This document shows, piece after piece, positions 1,348-49,884 of a stretch of 50,474 nt of DNA. The position numbers were made by a program, and so were the translations under genes. Within the stretch, counting starts at the first letter, position 1. Every line of letters begins with the position of its first letter. The notes beneath the pieces are model-generated. The model ran no database searches. It saw nothing but the letters and a program-made list of their open reading frames with translations, and was not told the origin of the DNA. Source of the stretch: Bacteroidota bacterium (GTDB taxonomy: Bacteria > Bacteroidota > Ignavibacteria > Ignavibacteriales > Ignavibacteriaceae); NCBI GenBank assembly GCA_021824565.1, contig JAKAKL010000108.1:1-50474 (forward strand), written 5' to 3'.

Positions 1348-1732
1348 ATAAGGAGCCTCCTCATAGTTTCCAAAATTATTTGAGTAGTAATAGCTTTCTT
1401 GCTGCTGGTATACCTAACGGTTATAATATTTTACTTACATGTAACTTCATTAATGTTAATGGTTTCCTGAGTAAACCATTCTTGATGCTATATAACCGAG
1501 CTTAATCTAAAACTACCAATCCTTTTCCTACTACCACTTTCAAAAATGTTTTACATTTAATCAACTTCACGATAATCCATAAGTATTTTAATTAATAAGT
1601 ACTCCCAATTTCCCCCGTTTGGGAAACTTCCTTAAATTATTTTTTATTTTTTTCTGGAATTATTCAACTAATATTTATATTTTAAACTCTGTACACGGTA
1701 TTACTATTTTGTAACAATCTGGGTGAGTATTT
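1348..1732. other. Intergenic region between divergent genes
   Basis: These 385 bases separate the minus-strand T9SS protein from the plus-strand gene at 1733 and must contain both promoters. The sequence is AT-rich. I see two small potential hairpins: ATGGTTT paired with AAACCAT around a 7-base loop, and TTTCCC (1609-1614) paired with GGGAAA (1621-1626). No confident promoter, RNA gene or ORF could be recognised. Confidence 0.5.
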
Positions 1733-2734
1733 ATGCTTAAGAATGGTACCTTGTTTTATATAAGAAAAATTCAAAAGGAGGAATTCTCATACATTGAGCT
1801 TAGGGAATTTATTGAGTTTTGTACTGAAGTCTCTCTTTTTCTTCTTAAGAAAAATCATCAGAATATAAAAAAGCGCTTTGACAATAATAATATTTCTTTT
1901 GAAGACGTCGCTGTTGATTCCATTACTCCACTGTTTATTAAAGATGACTGTCTTAATGTTACCGGATTTAAGTTTGCCTTAAATAGTTGGCGCAATGAGA
2001 TTATTACTGAAGCTGACGCCCATTTCTTTGTGCTTAAAATAATTACTAAAAAAACCAGCCAAACTGTAAATTCTATTTTAGGCGAGATCGATCCGCTTTA
2101 TAAAAAACTTTTGAAAAATATTTCTTATCAATCGTATAAGCTTGGTTATAAAAAAGCTTATCGTTCCGGAATTGCGTACCTTATTGATCCGGGTTCATAT
2201 AAAAGGAATGGTAAAATTGTTACTGATGAACATTTTGAACAAATTCCTCTTAACATTCCTAAAGATAAAATTAGTGTGAATATTTGTGATGTGTTTGCTT
2301 ATCTTAAAAATAATACTGAGTATATTTCAGCTATACCTTTGAATAAATTAATTCTAAGGTTAAAGAACATTTATGTAAATTTATTGGAATCAAAACCGGG
2401 AGAAGATAATATTCAGCTTGTTTTGGAAGTAAAGTATTCTATTGAAAGGGCTTTAAATTCTACTTTAAACAAATTAGAGAAATCTTATGTCAATAAAGAA
2501 ATACTTTCTGAATTTGAAGCCGATATTATGAAAAAGGCTCTACTGGAAGTTTCAAGCGACTTAATGGACGGCGGTATTCAACCTGGACTTGAAAATTATT
2601 TGCTGCCCTATTTTGACAATTTCTCTAAGAATGATGTTGCACTCAAGTATAGAAATATATTTGACTATCTGATACGTTGTCTCAAAAAGGAAATTTATAA
2701 GGAACTTGATTTTCAAACTTTTCCCAAATCTTAA
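1733..2734 (+). CDS. Unknown cytoplasmic helical protein, possible divergent sigma-like regulator
   Basis: I do not recognise this 333-residue protein with certainty. It has no signal peptide or membrane segment and is rich in Lys, Asn and predicted helix. Residues about 30-70, containing SFEDVAVDSITPLF, resemble in outline region 2 of ECF sigma factors, where an E-D-hydrophobic-x-x-D helix follows a basic helix. A later stretch (residues about 110-145, around EIDPLYKKLLKNI) could be a second helical domain. The next gene starts 45 bases downstream and the membrane Lon-like gene follows 229 bases after that, all on the same strand. The sigma-like idea is an inference from a short stretch; another helical adaptor or substrate protein is equally possible. 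Confidence 0.6.
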   Translation: MLKNGTLFYIRKIQKEEFSYIELREFIEFCTEVSLFLLKKNHQNIKKRFDNNNISFEDVAVDSITPLFIKDDCLNVTGFKFALNSWRNEIITEADAHFFVLKIITKKTSQTVNSILGEIDPLYKKLLKNISYQSYKLGYKKAYRSGIAYLIDPGSYKRNGKIVTDEHFEQIPLNIPKDKISVNICDVFAYLKNNTEYISAIPLNKLILRLKNIYVNLLESKPGEDNIQLVLEVKYSIERALNSTLNKLEKSYVNKEILSEFEADIMKKALLEVSSDLMDGGIQPGLENYLLPYFDNFSKNDVALKYRNIFDYLIRCLKKEIYKELDFQTFPKS

Positions 2735-2779
2735 ATTTTAGTCGTACTTATTTACTATAAAGAAAATAATATTTTTAGA

Positions 2780-3304
2780 ATGAAGATAAAAGAAGAAGAT
2801 ATTTTTAAGTATGTTCTATTTCCTGATGAGTTAGACTCTAAACGCAGAGATTTTATTAAGGAAAATGAAATTCTTTTTTCAGAACAAATACGTTTTTACG
2901 AGTCTTACTTAAAAAGTAAAAATGATCTTGATATTATTGCAAGCGCTAAAAAAGTAATTAGTAAAATTCCGGCATTGCAAAAAATTATTATACTTTCGCC
3001 TGTACTAAATAAAAATAATTCCGTCAATAAAATACCCACATTAGCTGCAGCTACAAGAGCTGAAGTAACAAAAAAATCAGAGTCTATAACTTTCACTGAT
3101 GAAAATCAAAAATATATGATTAGGCTAATCACTGGAAATAGTAAAAGTATCTTATATTTTTTCCCTAAGATTGAAAACGAAAAGCAAAGAATAAAGCTTA
3201 CTCTTGTTCCTTCTAATGAGACTTTTCATGTAGAAAGTAAAGCTCTCGAAATTGAAATTAATAATCAAAGCGTGGTTGAGAAAGTCTTTATTGAAACCGA
3301 CTAA
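2780..3304 (+). CDS. Unknown small cytoplasmic protein, possible regulatory partner
   Basis: This protein of 174 residues has no signal peptide and no membrane segment. The N-terminal half (about residues 1-70) is charged and helical, starting MKIKEEDIFKYVLFPDEL. The C-terminal half (about 95-174) alternates hydrophobic and polar residues as in a β-sandwich. No catalytic motif was found. It lies 45 bases after the 333-residue gene and before the membrane Lon-like gene. If the first gene is a sigma-like factor, this one is the natural candidate for its inhibitor or adaptor, but nothing in the sequence proves that. It ends just before a pair of 35-bp direct repeats. Confidence 0.6.
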   Translation: MKIKEEDIFKYVLFPDELDSKRRDFIKENEILFSEQIRFYESYLKSKNDLDIIASAKKVISKIPALQKIIILSPVLNKNNSVNKIPTLAAATRAEVTKKSESITFTDENQKYMIRLITGNSKSILYFFPKIENEKQRIKLTLVPSNETFHVESKALEIEINNQSVVEKVFIETD

Positions 3305-3364
3305 ATCAGGATTAAAAAGAAAATACAACTTCGATAGAATTAATATTATTATATTAAAAGTATA

Positions 3365-3451
3365 TCTCCTAATAGTAGGAACTTCGCCAGAAGTAACATG
3401 ATTGTAGAAAATAATTCTCTCCCGATAATAAGAACTCGCCAGAAGTGACAT
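3365..3451. repeat. Two imperfect 35-bp direct repeats with ACTTC-GCCA-GAAGT core
   Basis: Copy one spans 3365-3399 and copy two spans 3418-3451. They share the frame TCTCC/TCTCC, then a TAGGAACT or AAGAACT segment, then CGCCAGAAGT and RACAT. In copy one the core forms a perfect hairpin: ACTTC (3381-3385), loop GCCA, GAAGT (3390-3394). In copy two a base is missing from the left arm, so the stem is weaker. The pair lies in the 229-bp gap between the 174-residue gene and the membrane protease gene. They may be a dispersed REP-like element, operator sites or transcript processing sites. Confidence 0.75.
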
Positions 3452-3533
3452 ATAAATATTAAAATAATTAAATATATTTGCATTAAGTGTATAAATTATA
3501 TACGTTAAAGTATAAATTTCCTAAACTATTTGT

Positions 3534-5627
3534 ATGAATGCATTTGAAGCAGAGGAATTAAGGCAAAATACATTTGAAGAGCTGTCCCGTTCTAGTTCTC
3601 CTAAGGAAAGACTTTTTATTCTTAAAAGGTATTATTCTCTTCTTCTTAACGATTCAATTGATTTTATCGCAGACGCATTTTTAAGTGAGTACTTAGACGA
3701 CTTCCTAAAAAGCGCCGCAAAGTTCGAAGTTTTTTTCTCGCCGCCTAGTGTAACCGAAAATGTTTTAGCAGTCCTAAACGATCTTAAAAAACATGATGCT
3801 ATATCTAACCAGTTTGATAAGATAACTAATATCGAAAATAGACTGCATTCCAAACTGCTCCTCCTGAATGAAATTTTAGAAGAAAAAGAGTTAGATAAAT
3901 TTGACTCAAACAAACTTCATGTGCCGATGCTTGAAAAAAATCTTTCTCCTGATTATGATCTTAGCATTGGCTCGCTGGAGACTCTAACTATTAGTATTAA
4001 GAAGAACAGCGAAATAAATAAGTTTATTATTGTCCCCTCTTCCGGCAGTAATGACGACAATTTAATGGAACAGGTAAACAAATCATGGAGAACATCTGTA
4101 GAATATTTTAGAAAGTACGGCGGGAAGGTAAAAGATTTTCATACTGTAATTATTCATTTCGATAATCAACTCGGGAATTATACTGGAATTTCGTTTGGCG
4201 CTGCTTTAACTATTTGCTTTATTGAAGAGTTGATTAAATATTATAATTTTTCTTATCTAATAAACATAAGAAAAAATGTTGCTGTCACCGGTGGGTTTAA
4301 TAATGAAGGCGATCTTATTTCAATTACTGAAAACCTTATTATCAAGAAGCTCGAAATTGTCTTCTATTCGCACATTAAAATATTTGTTGTACCCGAGGGA
4401 AATAGACATTCGCTTGAAAATTACTTAATTGAACTTAGAAGAACATATCCCGATCGCAAACTTGAGATAATCGGAATTAAGAACCTGCAGGATTTATTTA
4501 ATAGAAGAAACATACTCGATATTAGAAAACAAAATCCGGTTAAAAGGACACTAAGATATGCTAAGAAAAATTATGTAGTTGCAATATTACTGCTTATTTT
4601 ATTTGCGTTGTCTGGATATTTCTATGTATTTAATTTTGATGATAACCCGGCAATGCTAAAAATGGATGAATATAATTTGTTGGTGCAAAACAACAGCGGG
4701 AAAGTACTTTGGTCAAAGAAAGTAGACTATGACCTACGATTTCCAAACTACGTGTTAAGATATATGACTAAAATAATAAGTCTAAATAATAAAAAGGAAA
4801 ATGATGTACTAATTTGCGGGCTAGACCGAACTGGTATCAAAAATAAAAAAGAATTTGGTAGTATATTTTGTTTCAATTATTTGGGAAAGGAATTGTGGCA
4901 TTATCAATTTAAAGATACTGTAAAATCATATGGAGAAAATCTTGAGCCAATTTATAACTGTATTTTAATAGATACCATAACAATCAAAGGTAAGCAATTA
5001 TTAGTAGCTAAAGCAACAAACGGTCCTTCATTTTCTTCTGCAATTTTTACACTTGACTTAAAATCTGGAAGTAGAGTTGGCACCACTTTTTGGAACCCTG
5101 GTTTTGTAGAGGAAGGTATTATAAAAAGATTTCCCGATGACAAAGAACTAATAATATTTGCAGGTAATAATAATGGATATGAAAGACCTTTTATTGGTGG
5201 TATTCAATTAGATAAGCTTACGGGTTACGCACCATCTACACACTATTATACTTTTCTAAATATGAAACCTGCTTATTTGGATTTCTATCTTTTGTTGCCC
5301 GAAACGGATTACTTAAAACACTTTACAGTTTTCAGAGGTGGCTGCATTGAACAAGGCAGTTTATATGATTCGGAGAGAGAAAACAAGATAGAATTTACTA
5401 CATGCGAAAAAGATATTGATGAAGCAAGCCTCAACTATAGGCTTGATTACAATTTTAAGGATATTTCAATTATAGTCGACAGCAATTTTAGGTTGGAGAG
5501 GGATACAGCAGTCGCTCACGGATTACTCAAACTTCCTCTTACTGACACGCCGCAGTATTGCAAAATATTGGAAGACCAAGTACTTTACTGGAACGGGAAA
5601 CGCTTCGTTAAAAAAGATAAATTATAA
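3534..5627 (+). CDS. Membrane-anchored Lon-like (S16) protease with propeller-like C-terminal domain
   Basis: This 697-residue protein has three visible parts. Residues 1-150 are charged and helical. Residues about 150-325 match the proteolytic fold of Lon: GISFGAAL places a serine at 220 where Lon has GPSAG, AVTGGFNNEGDL matches Lon AMTGEITLRGNIL, Lys271/Lys272 fall where Lon has the catalytic lysine, and FVVPEGN matches the IIPKEN segment. Residues 347-368 are one transmembrane helix. The remaining 330 residues, with NNSGKVLW and NYLGKELW repeats, look like a PQQ/WD-type β-propeller outside the cytoplasm. No AAA+ domain is present. It is the last gene of a three-gene group. A role as a sensor that triggers cytoplasmic proteolysis is inferred; a non-proteolytic S16-fold protein is the alternative. 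The ATG at 3534 gives the cleanest N-terminus; another ATG at 3538 is out of frame. Confidence 0.7.
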   Translation: MNAFEAEELRQNTFEELSRSSSPKERLFILKRYYSLLLNDSIDFIADAFLSEYLDDFLKSAAKFEVFFSPPSVTENVLAVLNDLKKHDAISNQFDKITNIENRLHSKLLLLNEILEEKELDKFDSNKLHVPMLEKNLSPDYDLSIGSLETLTISIKKNSEINKFIIVPSSGSNDDNLMEQVNKSWRTSVEYFRKYGGKVKDFHTVIIHFDNQLGNYTGISFGAALTICFIEELIKYYNFSYLINIRKNVAVTGGFNNEGDLISITENLIIKKLEIVFYSHIKIFVVPEGNRHSLENYLIELRRTYPDRKLEIIGIKNLQDLFNRRNILDIRKQNPVKRTLRYAKKNYVVAILLLILFALSGYFYVFNFDDNPAMLKMDEYNLLVQNNSGKVLWSKKVDYDLRFPNYVLRYMTKIISLNNKKENDVLICGLDRTGIKNKKEFGSIFCFNYLGKELWHYQFKDTVKSYGENLEPIYNCILIDTITIKGKQLLVAKATNGPSFSSAIFTLDLKSGSRVGTTFWNPGFVEEGIIKRFPDDKELIIFAGNNNGYERPFIGGIQLDKLTGYAPSTHYYTFLNMKPAYLDFYLLLPETDYLKHFTVFRGGCIEQGSLYDSERENKIEFTTCEKDIDEASLNYRLDYNFKDISIIVDSNFRLERDTAVAHGLLKLPLTDTPQYCKILEDQVLYWNGKRFVKKDKL

Positions 5628-6211: not shown

Positions 6212-7138
6212 CTACTGGACTATAATTTTTTTATTCTCAATATCAATCGTTATTTTATTGCCAAGCCAGTTGACGCATGTGATTCCGTCATAGATCAGCC
6301 CGCTTAAAAATGACGCCTCTACTTTACCCGTATGTATGACAGGCTTATTTAGCAGTTCTATTTTCTTTATTACTGCCTTATAAAATTCATTTTCTACTTT
6401 CGGATTAAGGCTGCTTTTCTTAAAATATTTCTCCGCCTTTGAAGTGTCTATTCCCATTTCATTCATATATGCCGCGTTGAATCTAAACACGTTAAATCCC
6501 GCGCCGCTGTCCAATGCTACCTGAAGCGCAAGCTTATCATTTACTCTTACCTTTGTAAACATATCGAGCGATACGCCTCGCTGGTCGTCAAGCTGTATCG
6601 GTACAACTGTTCCATCTTTCTCTCTTTGCTTAATGGATTTATTCGTTTCGAGATATATTTTCTTATCCTTAAAATCAATCGTAAATGCCCTGTCCCGGAA
6701 GCATGTAAGAGATATTAATCCGTCAATATTTCCAAAGTCCGCGTCTATAATCGTAACGAAAGGATTTAGTATTTTCACATCACCGATCATTATACTTTTC
6801 GCCTTGTACAATTTCATTGTTATCTCTTCACCTGTAGCGCGGAAGCCTGTAAAGCTGCCGTCCTGCTGCCTTATATCATTCAGTCCTCCGGTAAATTTCT
6901 TAAAAAGCACGTTGATGCCTGCGCCTGTGTCGAGTATAAAATTGCCTTCCTTGCCGTTAACTTTAGCCTTAAGCACAATATGACCCTCCTTAGTAATGTC
7001 TATTGGAATTGCAGAGGGCGCTTTAGAATTTCTATGAGTATATTCTGATACTTTAGCTTCTGCGGCAAAAGCGTGGCTTGAATACAGACTTATTACATAG
7101 ATCATGCAAACAGTAAAGAGCGTAATTATATTTTTCAT
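6212..7138 (-). CDS. Exported two-lobed retropepsin-like aspartic protease
   Basis: The protein has two aspartic-protease active-site loops: FILDTGAG with Asp70 and ALDSGAG with Asp210 (numbered from the chosen start). Each is followed by the expected hydrophobic segment, so one chain could build the complete two-aspartate site, unlike single-lobed retropepsin homodimers. I chose the ATG at 7138 because it gives a clean signal peptide (MKNIITLFTVCMIYVISLYS...AFA); an upstream ATG at 7267 would bury it behind 43 residues. It is thus predicted to act in the periplasm or at the surface. It is divergent from the peroxiredoxin gene. Family: aspartyl protease PF13650/PF13975 type; substrate unknown. 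Confidence 0.82.
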   Translation of the reverse strand: MKNIITLFTVCMIYVISLYSSHAFAAEAKVSEYTHRNSKAPSAIPIDITKEGHIVLKAKVNGKEGNFILDTGAGINVLFKKFTGGLNDIRQQDGSFTGFRATGEEITMKLYKAKSIMIGDVKILNPFVTIIDADFGNIDGLISLTCFRDRAFTIDFKDKKIYLETNKSIKQREKDGTVVPIQLDDQRGVSLDMFTKVRVNDKLALQVALDSGAGFNVFRFNAAYMNEMGIDTSKAEKYFKKSSLNPKVENEFYKAVIKKIELLNKPVIHTGKVEASFLSGLIYDGITCVNWLGNKITIDIENKKIIVQ

Positions 7139-7411
7139 ATTTTCTTGTAATGTTAAAAATGGATAATGTAATTTAATCATGATATCGAATAAAAAAGATA
7201 AATACTCCGCATGATGAATGTTTTTTGGTTCAATAATCCCGGTTATGTGATATGTATTATCTAACATGGTTTTTCTGATGCAAGTAGTTTTATCTTAATG
7301 TATATTGACTGTTATCCTTACGCGGTTTACCTGAGGTTTGCAGATCATAATTAATAATTACAAGTTCAGTAACACACAATTATTTAATCAACTTAAAACA
7401 GAGAGGCAAAA

Positions 7412-47439: not shown

Positions 47440-49884
47440 TTGACCGAATTTAAAGAATCAGAAGTTAGTGCAATACGCGAAGATTCTATTGTAGATAATA
47501 TGCCAGAAGTCCTCCCGATTCTGCCTTTGCGGGATGTTGTTATATTTCCGTATATGATATACCCTGTGCTTGTCGGGCGTGAACAGTCAATCAAAGCAGC
47601 AAATTATGCCTTAGATAATACTAAATATATTTTCCTTTCTACTCAGCGTAAGCCTGGTATAGAAGATCCTAAGCGCGATGATATTTACCGCGAAGGAACA
47701 ATTGCAAAGATAGTCCAGATTCTAAAATTGCCGAATGGATTAATGAAAATTTTAGTTGATGGTTTGCTGCAAGGGAAAATTATTCAGTTTACAGAAAACA
47801 AAGATTTTTTTGAAGGTAAGATTGAAGTTATAGTTCCGCAAGTTGCAACCGATCATGAAATGAACGCCATGATCAGACAAATGTCGCAGCTTTTCAAAGA
47901 TTATGTTAAGATAAGCCGAAACATTCCTAATGAAGCTATCTCCGCCTTTGATAATATTGATGAACCTGATAGGAAATTATTTTACGTTGCGGCAAACATT
48001 AATCAATCCATCGATGTGAAGCAGACTATTCTGCAGAAGTTCGATCTTAAGGAGCAGTTTCTTGAAGTAATAAAAATCCTTAATTCGGAAATCGACATTC
48101 TGAAAATAGAAAAGGAAATTGATAATAAAGTTCAGGAAAACATTGCTAAAACACAGCGTAAGTTTATAATACAAGAGCAGATTAAAATTCTCCAGGATGA
48201 ATTGGGCGAAGAGGATGATTCCAACCCTGAATATTCAAAGCTGCGAGATCAAATTAAAAAAGCCAAGATGAGCAAACCCGCTGAGGAAAAGGCGCTCGAA
48301 GAATTAAACAAGCTTAAGAAAACTCCGCCAATGTCACCGGAGTCAACTGTAATAAGAAATTATTTGGACTGGCTTGTTGAAGTTCCATGGTCAAAAAGGA
48401 CAAAAGATAATTTAACAATCGGACATGTTCAGAAAATTTTAGATGAAGACCATTTTGGTTTGGAAAAACCTAAAGAAAGAATTATCGAACATATCGCGGT
48501 ATTAAATCTCGTAAAACAAATGCGCGGACAAATATTGTGCTTCGTTGGACCTCCCGGAGTCGGCAAAACTTCTCTTGGAAAATCAATAGCAAGAGCATTA
48601 GGAAGAAATTTTGTTAGAATAAGTTTGGGCGGCGTACGTGATGAAGCTGAAATAAGAGGTCATAGACGGACTTATATCGGCTCTATGCCCGGCAAGATAA
48701 TTCAGTCGATGAAAAGAGCCGGTACCGTAAATCCGGTTATCTTAATGGATGAAATCGACAAAATGAGTATGGATTTTAGAGGCGATCCTTCATCAGCTAT
48801 GCTTGAAGTTCTTGATCCAGAACAAAATAATGCTTTTAATGATCATTATCTCGAAGTGGATTACGATCTCTCGCAGGTAATGTTTATAACTACTGCAAAC
48901 GTGCGGTATAATATTCCTCTGCCGCTTCAAGATAGAATGGAAATAATTGAATTGCCTGGCTATCTTGAATACGATAAAATTGAAATAGCAAAAAGACATA
49001 TCGTTCCGAAGCAGCTTGAGAACCACGGCTTGAAAAACAAAAACGTAACTGTAAAAGATGAAGCGATAAAAAAAATTATTTCCGAATATACGCGTGAAGC
49101 GGGCGTAAGAAATCTTGAAAGAGAATTAGCTTCTGTTTGCAGAAAGCTCGCAAGAGATATAGTATTAAAAGAATCTTCCAACGGTCATGCTAAAGGAAAA
49201 ATTAGTTATGTCGTTGATGAGAAAAAAATTGAAGAATATTTGAAAACTCCGCGTTTCAGATTACATAAACATAATTTAGGAAGACAAATCGGCAGCGTTA
49301 CTGGTTTGGCTTGGACAAGCGTTGGCGGAGAAATTCTGACTGTTGATGTTACAATTATGAACGGTTCGGAAAAATTAATTCTTACAGGTCAGCTTGGTGA
49401 TATAATGAAAGAATCGGCTCAAGCTGCTTTAAGCTGTATACGTTCTAAAGCAAAAGACTTTGGTCTTGATCCTAATTTCTTTAGAGGAAAAGAGATTCAT
49501 ATTCATCTTCCCGAAGGAGCAATTCCAAAAGACGGACCTTCGGCCGGAATTACAATGGCAATGGCTATTCTTTCAGCCGTAAGCGGGAAACCAGCTAATA
49601 ATAATATTGCCATGACAGGTGAAATAACTCTTCGCGGAAATATTCTTCCAATCGGCGGACTTAATGAAAAATTACTTGCTGCAAAACGAAATGGAATACT
49701 GTCTGTCATTATTCCGAAAGAAAATGAAATTGATCTAAATGAAATAACCGCTCCTGTGAAGGAAGGATTAAAAATAATACCGGTAGAAAAATTTGAAGAC
49801 GCACTTCCCTATGTCTTCAAAGATTCTTTTACGAAAAGTGCAAATGTAAAGAGTAACAAGTTTCAAAAAAAAATAAAGAAATAG
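47440..49884 (+). CDS. lon: ATP-dependent protease Lon
   Basis: A complete LonA of 814 residues: N-terminal substrate domain (about 25-220), coiled-coil connector, AAA+ domain with Walker A GPPGVGKT (370-377) and Walker B VILMDEID, and C-terminal S16 protease with Ser701 in DGPSAGIT and Lys744 in GGLNEKLLAAK. It degrades damaged and regulatory proteins in the cytosol. The start is TTG with a strong AAGGAG in front. The stop codon is directly followed by the ATG of the next gene. It offers an in-window reference for the divergent Lon-like domain at 3534-5627. Confidence 0.98.
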   Translation: MTEFKESEVSAIREDSIVDNMPEVLPILPLRDVVIFPYMIYPVLVGREQSIKAANYALDNTKYIFLSTQRKPGIEDPKRDDIYREGTIAKIVQILKLPNGLMKILVDGLLQGKIIQFTENKDFFEGKIEVIVPQVATDHEMNAMIRQMSQLFKDYVKISRNIPNEAISAFDNIDEPDRKLFYVAANINQSIDVKQTILQKFDLKEQFLEVIKILNSEIDILKIEKEIDNKVQENIAKTQRKFIIQEQIKILQDELGEEDDSNPEYSKLRDQIKKAKMSKPAEEKALEELNKLKKTPPMSPESTVIRNYLDWLVEVPWSKRTKDNLTIGHVQKILDEDHFGLEKPKERIIEHIAVLNLVKQMRGQILCFVGPPGVGKTSLGKSIARALGRNFVRISLGGVRDEAEIRGHRRTYIGSMPGKIIQSMKRAGTVNPVILMDEIDKMSMDFRGDPSSAMLEVLDPEQNNAFNDHYLEVDYDLSQVMFITTANVRYNIPLPLQDRMEIIELPGYLEYDKIEIAKRHIVPKQLENHGLKNKNVTVKDEAIKKIISEYTREAGVRNLERELASVCRKLARDIVLKESSNGHAKGKISYVVDEKKIEEYLKTPRFRLHKHNLGRQIGSVTGLAWTSVGGEILTVDVTIMNGSEKLILTGQLGDIMKESAQAALSCIRSKAKDFGLDPNFFRGKEIHIHLPEGAIPKDGPSAGITMAMAILSAVSGKPANNNIAMTGEITLRGNILPIGGLNEKLLAAKRNGILSVIIPKENEIDLNEITAPVKEGLKIIPVEKFEDALPYVFKDSFTKSANVKSNKFQKKIKK

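Follow-up and report, generated by a model that had tools for sequence, protein, structure and literature searches.

We looked at three consecutive genes on the forward strand of contig JAKAKL010000108.1, from a Bacteroidota bacterium of the family Ignavibacteriaceae (assembly GCA_021824565.1); the whole stretch analysed, 50,474 nucleotides, is called the window here. The genes occupy positions 1733-5627 and, in the list of open reading frames (ORFs), encode P1 (1733-2734, 333 residues), P2 (2780-3304, 174 residues) and P3 (3534-5627, 697 residues). The nearest substantial ORFs on either side, at 154-1347 and 6212-7267, are on the reverse strand. P1 is a soluble helical protein and probably a sigma-factor-like regulator without a named family, conserved beside anti-sigma-type proteins. 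P2 is probably a zinc-less anti-sigma-type inhibitor and a putative protease substrate, while P3 is a membrane protein with a helical N-terminus, a Lon (S16) domain, one membrane helix and an FG-GAP-type propeller. We propose that the trio probably forms a one-step transmembrane signalling cascade, in which a signal at the propeller would activate the Lon domain, P2 would be cut and P1 would be freed. What carries this proposal was obtained computationally: the trio is conserved, P3 has a Lon fold with an invariant Ser/Lys pair, relatives carry an anti-sigma motif, P2 has a motif linked to the Lon domain, and the topology of P3 is predicted. A sequence-only reading of the window had already described three same-strand genes, the last combining an S16-like domain, one membrane helix and a propeller-like outside region. 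This description agrees with the exact coordinates, the profile, the structure and the Pfam matches in relatives presented below. Likewise, hydropathy found no membrane segment in either P1 or P2, as that reading had said.

The Lon domain, membrane helix and propeller of P3

When the three window proteins were compared singly with Pfam, NCBIfam and PADLOC, no significant match was obtained: Pfam had none for P3, PADLOC matched none of P1, P2 and P3, and the sole pointer from these look-ups was the NCBIfam model lon_rel on P3 (E 0.077). P3 alone did not match any sequence of the PDB either. A profile built from 30 relatives of P3 matched the proteolytic domains of LonB from A. fulgidus (1z0e, E 0.00059) and M. 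jannaschii (1xhk, E 0.00088) and also Bacillus Lon (8dvh, E 0.0056), and Pfam Lon_C was found in 5 of the 30 relatives at E up to 1 (best 0.0021). The structure of P3 was predicted with AlphaFold2 from 14 sequences, with a mean predicted local distance difference test (pLDDT) of 84.9 and a predicted template modelling score (pTM) of 0.51. With this model, each of the best 50 of 898 Foldseek matches was to a Lon structure, at E down to 1.5e-9 and with a TM-score, relative to the target, of up to 0.78. A second structural aligner superposed residues 122-330 on 6x27_D with a Z of 20.0 and a root-mean-square deviation (rmsd) of 2.8 over 178 residues, for a chain of 185; nearly all of its 50 rows were Lon, with BrxL and ComM, which have Lon-like folds, among the last. 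The S16-like domain of P3 is real, and its structure prediction gives the Lon fold that the sequence-only reading had led one to expect. By profile and structural matches, it covers residues 122-333 (3897-4532).

Within this domain, Ser220 (4191-4193) is the predicted nucleophile and Lys272 (4347-4349) the predicted general base, at positions aligned with the Ser-Lys catalytic pair of LonB in the profile alignment. In our reading of the alignment, the lysine comes two residues later than in Lon after a conserved Thr-Gly stretch, and its distance to the next proline is equal. The sequence-only reading had made its case depend on this pair being kept in homologues, and it is: neither residue varies among the 30 aligned sequences. 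When the set was widened to 87 aligned rows, with some records twice and some fragments, position 220 is Ser in 80 of the 81 rows with a letter there and position 272 is Lys in 79 of 79, the single exception being a fragment of a broken reading. Ser220, Gly218 and Lys272 are the three best-conserved positions of the N-terminal half of P3 in this set.

Residues 1-122 are predicted to be almost wholly helical and are too short for an AAA+ domain, and no AAA family was among the families listed (25 of 26) in the Pfam scan of the 30 P3 members. P3 thus resembles the Lon proteases LonA, LonB and LonC (MEROPS S16) by its proteolytic fold and its Ser/Lys pair but differs from them in that it has no detected AAA+ domain and is fused to one membrane helix and a propeller. 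Some 42 kb from the module, at 47440-49884 on the forward strand, the window also contains an 814-residue Lon protease gene that looks ordinary by eye.

Two overlapping hydropathy windows merge to one segment in P3 (residues 343-366), and the membrane helix was placed at residues 348-366 (4575-4631). Of 73 long rows, among which some records occur twice, 69 have more lysine and arginine on the N-terminal side of this segment; by this criterion the Lon part is predicted to lie in the cytoplasm and the propeller on the outer side. The propeller-like outer region, the proposed sensor, spans residues 370-697 (4641-5624). Pfam FG-GAP_3 was found in 17 of the 30 long P3 relatives at E up to 1 (best 2.6e-6), and FG-GAP passed its curated cut-off in short-form relatives at three loci (L045, L082 and L044). 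Among the rows listed in the structural comparison none covers the propeller, so its fold rests on the Pfam repeats and the predicted strands. SAVED, another sensor domain considered below, was not among the 25 of 26 families listed for the 30 members; a SAVED search of the genome from which the window comes gave no match, though its controls gave no signal either.

The trio in relatives and the anti-sigma features of P2

P3 or its C-terminal part was matched in 42 of 97 related genomes (the window's own genome counted). At class level, the P1 profile matched 107 of 294 genomes; at phylum level, the P3 profile, with short forms counted, matched 48 of 395. Gene neighbourhoods were counted in the window and in fetched regions (numbered L031-L084 and L158-L197), with tandem copies and the four module copies of the window's own genome included. 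A P1 gene on the same strand, no more than 12.6 kb away, accompanied 51 of 62 long P3 genes. It was upstream in 32 (order P1-P2-P3) and downstream in 19 (order P3-P1-P2, sometimes with other genes between); the nine intervals listed between P3 and P1 had no constant member. Each of the four copies of the own genome has its P1. Distant families of the phylum also keep the neighbourhood. A count was also started from P1, with 22 P1 genes in 20 regions chosen from the P1 list while the P3 list was also in view, some genomes being on both. Here, 19 had a downstream propeller partner within 1.4 kb (15 of the short form, 4 trios), and of the three others two have fewer than 800 bases of sequence remaining. 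The trio is not a chance arrangement, and the expectation of the sequence-only reading that the genes would stand together in other genomes was borne out.

The short form is a Lon-less duo, made of P1 followed by one protein of about 420-555 residues that carries an HxxxCxxC domain at its N-terminus, together with a membrane helix and the propeller known from P3. Zinc-binding anti-sigma (ZAS) factors are marked by HxxxCxxC within a short helical domain. All 27 duo proteins between 400 and 600 residues long have the motif intact; this range left out shorter, contig-cut copies and L196. The duo profile weakly matches the anti-sigma factor RsiW (5wuq, E 0.059), and zf-HC2 was found below cut-off in 4 of 10 duo proteins or P2 scanned (best E 0.0087). 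L196 itself (1549-4140, reverse strand) is an 863-residue open frame running off the contig end, in which a P2-like N-terminus is joined to a membrane segment and two propellers and which has no HxxxCxxC.

The window P2 has no Pfam match, its profile gave only chance-level matches against the PDB, and HxxxCxxC is not present in it: it belongs to the majority of P2 proteins that have no zinc ligands. In other lineages, free P2 with an intact motif were found in 5 of 49 profile matches and in 2 of 5 further ORFs lying in P1-P3 gaps; these seven are at L170 (twice), L172, L177, L197, L039 and L182. At L170 (2968-13637), two complete trios face away from each other, both with a zinc-motif P2. In a Pfam scan of 18 long P2 relatives, zf-HC2 was matched once (E 0.0058, below cut-off), and no MazF family was seen among them (14 families listed) nor in the window P2. 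P2 is probably an anti-sigma-type inhibitor, because the duo form and some free P2 carry the zinc anti-sigma motif, and P1, which occupies the place expected of its sigma factor, is probably its sigma-like partner.

For structure prediction, P1 and P2 were joined into a single chain by reading through the stop codon (mean pLDDT 73.7 and pTM 0.53, from 13 sequences). In the predicted structure, Leu88-Ala89-Ala90 of P2 (3041-3049) sits between a helical domain and a C-terminal beta domain, in a low-confidence, disordered linker (mean pLDDT 32 and 38 in its two ten-residue blocks). These residues are among the best conserved of 50 distinct P2 proteins (Ala90 in 49, Glu5 in 46, Leu88 in 45, Leu72 in 44 and Ala89 in 43). 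With a loose Leu-Ala-Ala pattern, which was composed after viewing the alignment, the motif was found within residues 56-150 of 44 of 50 P2 partnered by Lon, and 3 times in the other 6472 residues of these proteins. In the Lon-less duo proteins, contrarily, the linker from the zinc motif to the membrane had a motif of this type in 1 of 27, as Ile-Ser-Ala, although P2 and duo linkers are not strictly homologous. Conservation of a motif in a disordered linker, seen only in the form that has the protease domain, is the pattern to be expected of a cleavage site, and we propose that Leu88-Ala89-Ala90 is likely to be the site recognized or cut by the protease. The sequence-only reading had left the choice of substrate between P2 and P1; of the two guesses, P2 is the one supported by the anti-sigma motif of its relatives and by the Lon-linked Leu-Ala-Ala.

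Two alternative uses of P3 can be weighed here. In the first, the Lon domain would be an inert scaffold, with P3 tethering P2 and P1 at the membrane until a signal releases both uncut. The Lon-less duo is consistent with it, as a membrane anti-sigma with the same propeller can exist without the protease domain, and so are the Lon-like folds of ComM and BrxL, which to our knowledge are not known as proteases. However, a pure scaffold would have no need for Ser220 and Lys272, which with Gly218 head the conservation of their half of P3, and the Leu-Ala-Ala linker motif accompanies the Lon domain. We therefore find a scaffold improbable. In the second, P3 would destroy P1 itself and shut the response off. 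One case of a canonical Lon protease degrading a sigma factor is reported (PMC10662116). Against this, no AAA+ unfoldase part was found in P3, the conserved disordered motif is in P2, and it is P2 that is free in the Lon form while in the Lon-less form the inhibitor domain is fused to the membrane part; degradation of P1 by P3 appears very improbable.

Some loci carry several P3. L179 (5598-14589) has the order P1-P2-P3-P3-P3 and L180 (5132-11711) the order P1-P2-P3-P3, while L034 (2533-18848) has four P3 copies, one P1 and two P2. In 10 of 10 pairs of array paralogues, the Lon domain was more alike than the propeller (means of 0.52, 0.49 and 0.57 for Lon versus 0.37, 0.37 and 0.35 for the propeller). 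A weaker lean of the same kind exists across all 1891 pairs of the P3 family (0.27 versus 0.24), and the trait is therefore one of the family and not specific to arrays. If several sensors feed one output, two to four P3 per P1 are to be expected, and the arrays fit with diversified sensors acting on a shared inhibitor.

P1 and the sigma factors

The sequence-only reading had noticed a short stretch like sigma region 2 in P1. By sequence, this hint did not reach significance. The window P1 has no Pfam match and only a chance-level NCBIfam hit, and its profile gave only chance-level hits against the PDB. No Pfam sigma family appeared among 28 and 23 P1 members (two members in both sets; for the first set, among the 25 of 26 families listed). 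Among other chance-level NCBIfam hits, one member of the 23 matched SigW at E 0.023 but out of register, and one matched ShbA at E 0.051, here in the expected register. Comparison of a 64-row P1 alignment with local sigma alignments by hhalign was not significant, the best P being 0.0092 for the N-terminal half versus RpoD. This RpoD score was reached by column-permuted decoys in 1 of 150 and by block-permuted decoys in 2 of 150, and the reversed alignment remained below it; for extracytoplasmic function (ECF) sigma factors, block-permuted decoys reached the P1 score in 8 of 150.

When a hidden Markov model of P1 was used, 35 sigma sequences outscored 604 other ORFs (area under the curve 0.93), in a set unmatched for helix content. 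The sigma scores were also modestly higher than those of their own reversals (P 0.04 for the N-terminal half, 0.001 for the C-terminal half and 0.005 for the whole), while for the N-terminal half the best single scores from reversed or shuffled copies were equally high. The eDlAiD stretch of P1 has a conserved Asp, at model position 54 by hand count. In 16 of the 19 best alignments covering it, this residue fell on the Asp of sigma region 2.2, taken as model position 53 or 54; 12 of these 16 are near-identical RpoD copies and all scores are below 5 bits. Altogether, the sequence-level evidence for P1 as a sigma factor is suggestive and is no proof.

Foldseek found no match below E 0.001 for the P1-P2 model. 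In the second aligner, the first row for P1 was 7khi_F, from an E. coli RNA polymerase complex (Z 6.5, rmsd 3.1, 93 residues), and the second was 9e87_F, from an M. tuberculosis complex (Z 6.2, rmsd 7.1, 127 residues), the aligner warning that a Z under 8 may reflect a common arrangement. Chain F of both entries is the sigma subunit. The first alignment places residues 1-119 of P1 (1733-2089) on residues 108-446 of 7khi_F (sigma70), which cover sigma regions 1.2 to 2.4. With its Z under 8, the top structural match of this part of the predicted fold is suggestive only, and it agrees with the region 2 hint. For the C-terminal half of P1, only assorted helical folds were found among the rows listed. 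From the structural ranking together with the neighbourhood, a sigma-like function of P1 is likely.

P1 could still be another kind of regulator or effector that P2 keeps inactive, with the anatomy and cleavage of P2 as proposed. The missing significant sequence match to sigma factors and the assorted folds of the C-terminal half speak for this. On the other side are the zinc anti-sigma motif on the partner of P1 in all 27 duo forms, the sigma chains at structural ranks 1 and 2 and the weak SigW and ShbA matches of single members, and we consider a non-sigma P1 rather unlikely.

Some P1 genes are split near the middle: by an in-frame stop at L062 (6968-7954) and L071 (8886-9881), and by a frame change at L058 (3626-4611) and L065 (5365-6235). 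These could be decay, assembly error or a genuine two-part protein. At L096 (587-1099, forward strand), the P1 reading is missing a large central stretch.

The proposed cascade and its relation to known systems

From the above, we infer signal sensing, activation, cleavage at Leu-Ala-Ala, docking and the sigma activity of P1, in the following order. P3 would span the inner membrane, its FG-GAP propeller facing outwards and its Lon domain lying in the cytoplasm, while P2, of anti-sigma type, would hold P1, a highly divergent sigma-like transcription factor. Binding of an outside ligand to the propeller would cause a conformational change or clustering of P3 and so switch on the Lon domain, which would then cut P2 at Leu-Ala-Ala, in the linker between its inhibitor domain and its C-terminal docking domain. 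The helical part of the cut P2 would lose its hold or be degraded further, and the freed P1 would act on RNA polymerase and redirect transcription.

Several observations weigh against this cascade. For eleven of the 62 long P3 genes, the fetched stretch contains no P1; five of these genes lie within 3 kb of an end of the stretch and six do not. At L060, one of the six, a same-strand P1 exists at a distance of 7.2 kb, just beyond what was fetched. The positive-inside rule is met by just 12 of 26 short forms. ComM and BrxL, which are not known to be proteases, have Lon-like folds too. Zinc ligands are lost in 44 of the 49 P2 profile matches, the window P2 likewise, and the Leu-Ala-Ala count has the limits given with it. 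For P1, its loci are absent from the 18 Sigma70_r2 matches of the own genome, reversed ECF and mixed sigma alignments outscore the forward ones (two of three reversed controls), the Z of 6.5 with the sigma chain falls in the common-arrangement range and the second row has an rmsd of 7.1.

The sequence-only reading had proposed a pathway unlike those of RseP and FecR in that the protease is itself the sensor. A precedent that it did not name exists in the CalpL/CalpT/CalpS cascade of type III CRISPR. As set out in the sections of PMC11417357 and PMC12751052 concerned with it, this cascade comprises a Lon-domain protease, an inhibitor and a sigma factor, and cutting of the inhibitor is shown there; CalpL is activated by oligomerisation (same sections of PMC11417357). 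As far as these sections go, the likeness extends to the trio of protease, inhibitor and sigma factor (here sigma-like and predicted), to a single chain with the Lon part towards the N-terminus and the sensor at the C-terminus, and to an inhibitor split into a regulator-bound part and a small part, which is shown for Calp and proposed here. In contrast, the sensor is here a membrane helix with an FG-GAP propeller instead of a SAVED domain that binds cyclic adenylate, and P1 is not a recognisable ECF sigma factor. The N-terminus of the inhibitor also differs, as it is like zinc anti-sigma factors here whereas the 23 kDa part of CalpT is described as MazF-like in the relevant passage of a 2022 review (PMC9704534).

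The C-terminal beta domain of P2 (residues 97-174, 3068-3301) has a weak similarity to the CalpT10 fragment. It was superposed on 8b0u_C of the CalpL/T10 complex, a chain taken as T10 from its 76 residues numbered 195-269, with a Z of 5.5, an rmsd of 2.6 and 15 per cent identity over 66 of the 76 residues; unrelated beta sandwiches, namely MATH and fungal toxin domains, score equally well, which adds to the points against the cascade, and no match to CalpT10 was found by sequence. Since the match is no better than these, the trio, which by analogy appears to work like Calp, is not filed as a member of it. In the ORF lists of the window, no type III CRISPR gene was recognised by eye, and no dedicated cas search was made.

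The parallel with Calp, as far as those same sections describe it, would also suit a role in defence, with attack by phages or rivals sensed at the envelope, as would the patchy distribution and the several copies per genome. Against this are the lack of PADLOC matches for the three proteins, the ORF lists of the window, in which no phage, cas or other defence genes were recognised by eye, and the viral contigs, which held no relative with the patterns used. A defence role seems improbable to us.

RsiW is a ZAS factor with a membrane helix that follows the site-1/site-2 protease scheme. The present system is like ZAS factors in that, in relatives, a helical HxxxCxxC inhibitor domain adjoins the regulator gene and the duo form is membrane-tethered, with an outer propeller. 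It is unlike them in that the inhibitor of the window is soluble, zinc-less and separate from the sensor, while the protease domain is fused to the sensor. A published description of such a system was not found in literature searches covering open-licence papers only. Taken as a whole, the sequence-only interpretation is partly supported.

In the P2-P3 gap, two near-identical 16-nucleotide direct copies lie at 3384-3399 and 3436-3451, the first beside a short palindrome; the repeat is not a genome-wide element. No shared promoter motif upstream of P1 or P3 was established by 7-mer enrichment, the best 7-mers occurring in 9 of 80 P1 regions (1.2 expected) and in 7 of 71 P3 regions (0.4 expected), uncorrected for the number of 7-mers. 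Divergent from P1, the reverse-strand ORF at 154-1347 encodes a secreted 397-residue repeat protein with a type IX secretion tail. At L055, L035, L056 and L058, large secreted proteins, LamG-like by eye, lie on the opposite strand between P3 and P1. A link of the module to type IX secreted proteins was dropped, as the other three copies of the own genome have no listed tail within about 5 kb, one of the contigs (C148) ending beside P1; this genome has at least 150 type IX tails in 4.59 Mb (186 candidates, 150 scored).

Control of anti-sigma factors from outside to inside is known to use separate site-1 and site-2 proteases, partner switching or FecR-type transducers. If the proposed cascade is true, sensor and protease would be in one molecule that acts on a soluble inhibitor, and a function would be proposed for three protein families that had none. 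A concrete candidate cleavage motif and catalytic residues are named, and the Lon-less duo of the same clade is a natural control. With regard to the known Calp logic, what differs here is the sensor, the inhibitor with anti-sigma zinc-finger features and the unrecognised regulator; the CRISPR Calp cascade would then sit in a wider family of Lon-driven transcription switches. Tentatively, and with less confidence than for the cascade itself, we envisage switches present across the phylum, in which one protein would be both the outside sensor and a Lon-type protease acting on a soluble anti-sigma, the sigma factor would lie beyond the models searched, arrays would share a regulator, and Calp would be a cousin in which a nucleotide sensor replaces the propeller. 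The trio may thereby point to a sigma-like class that present models miss.

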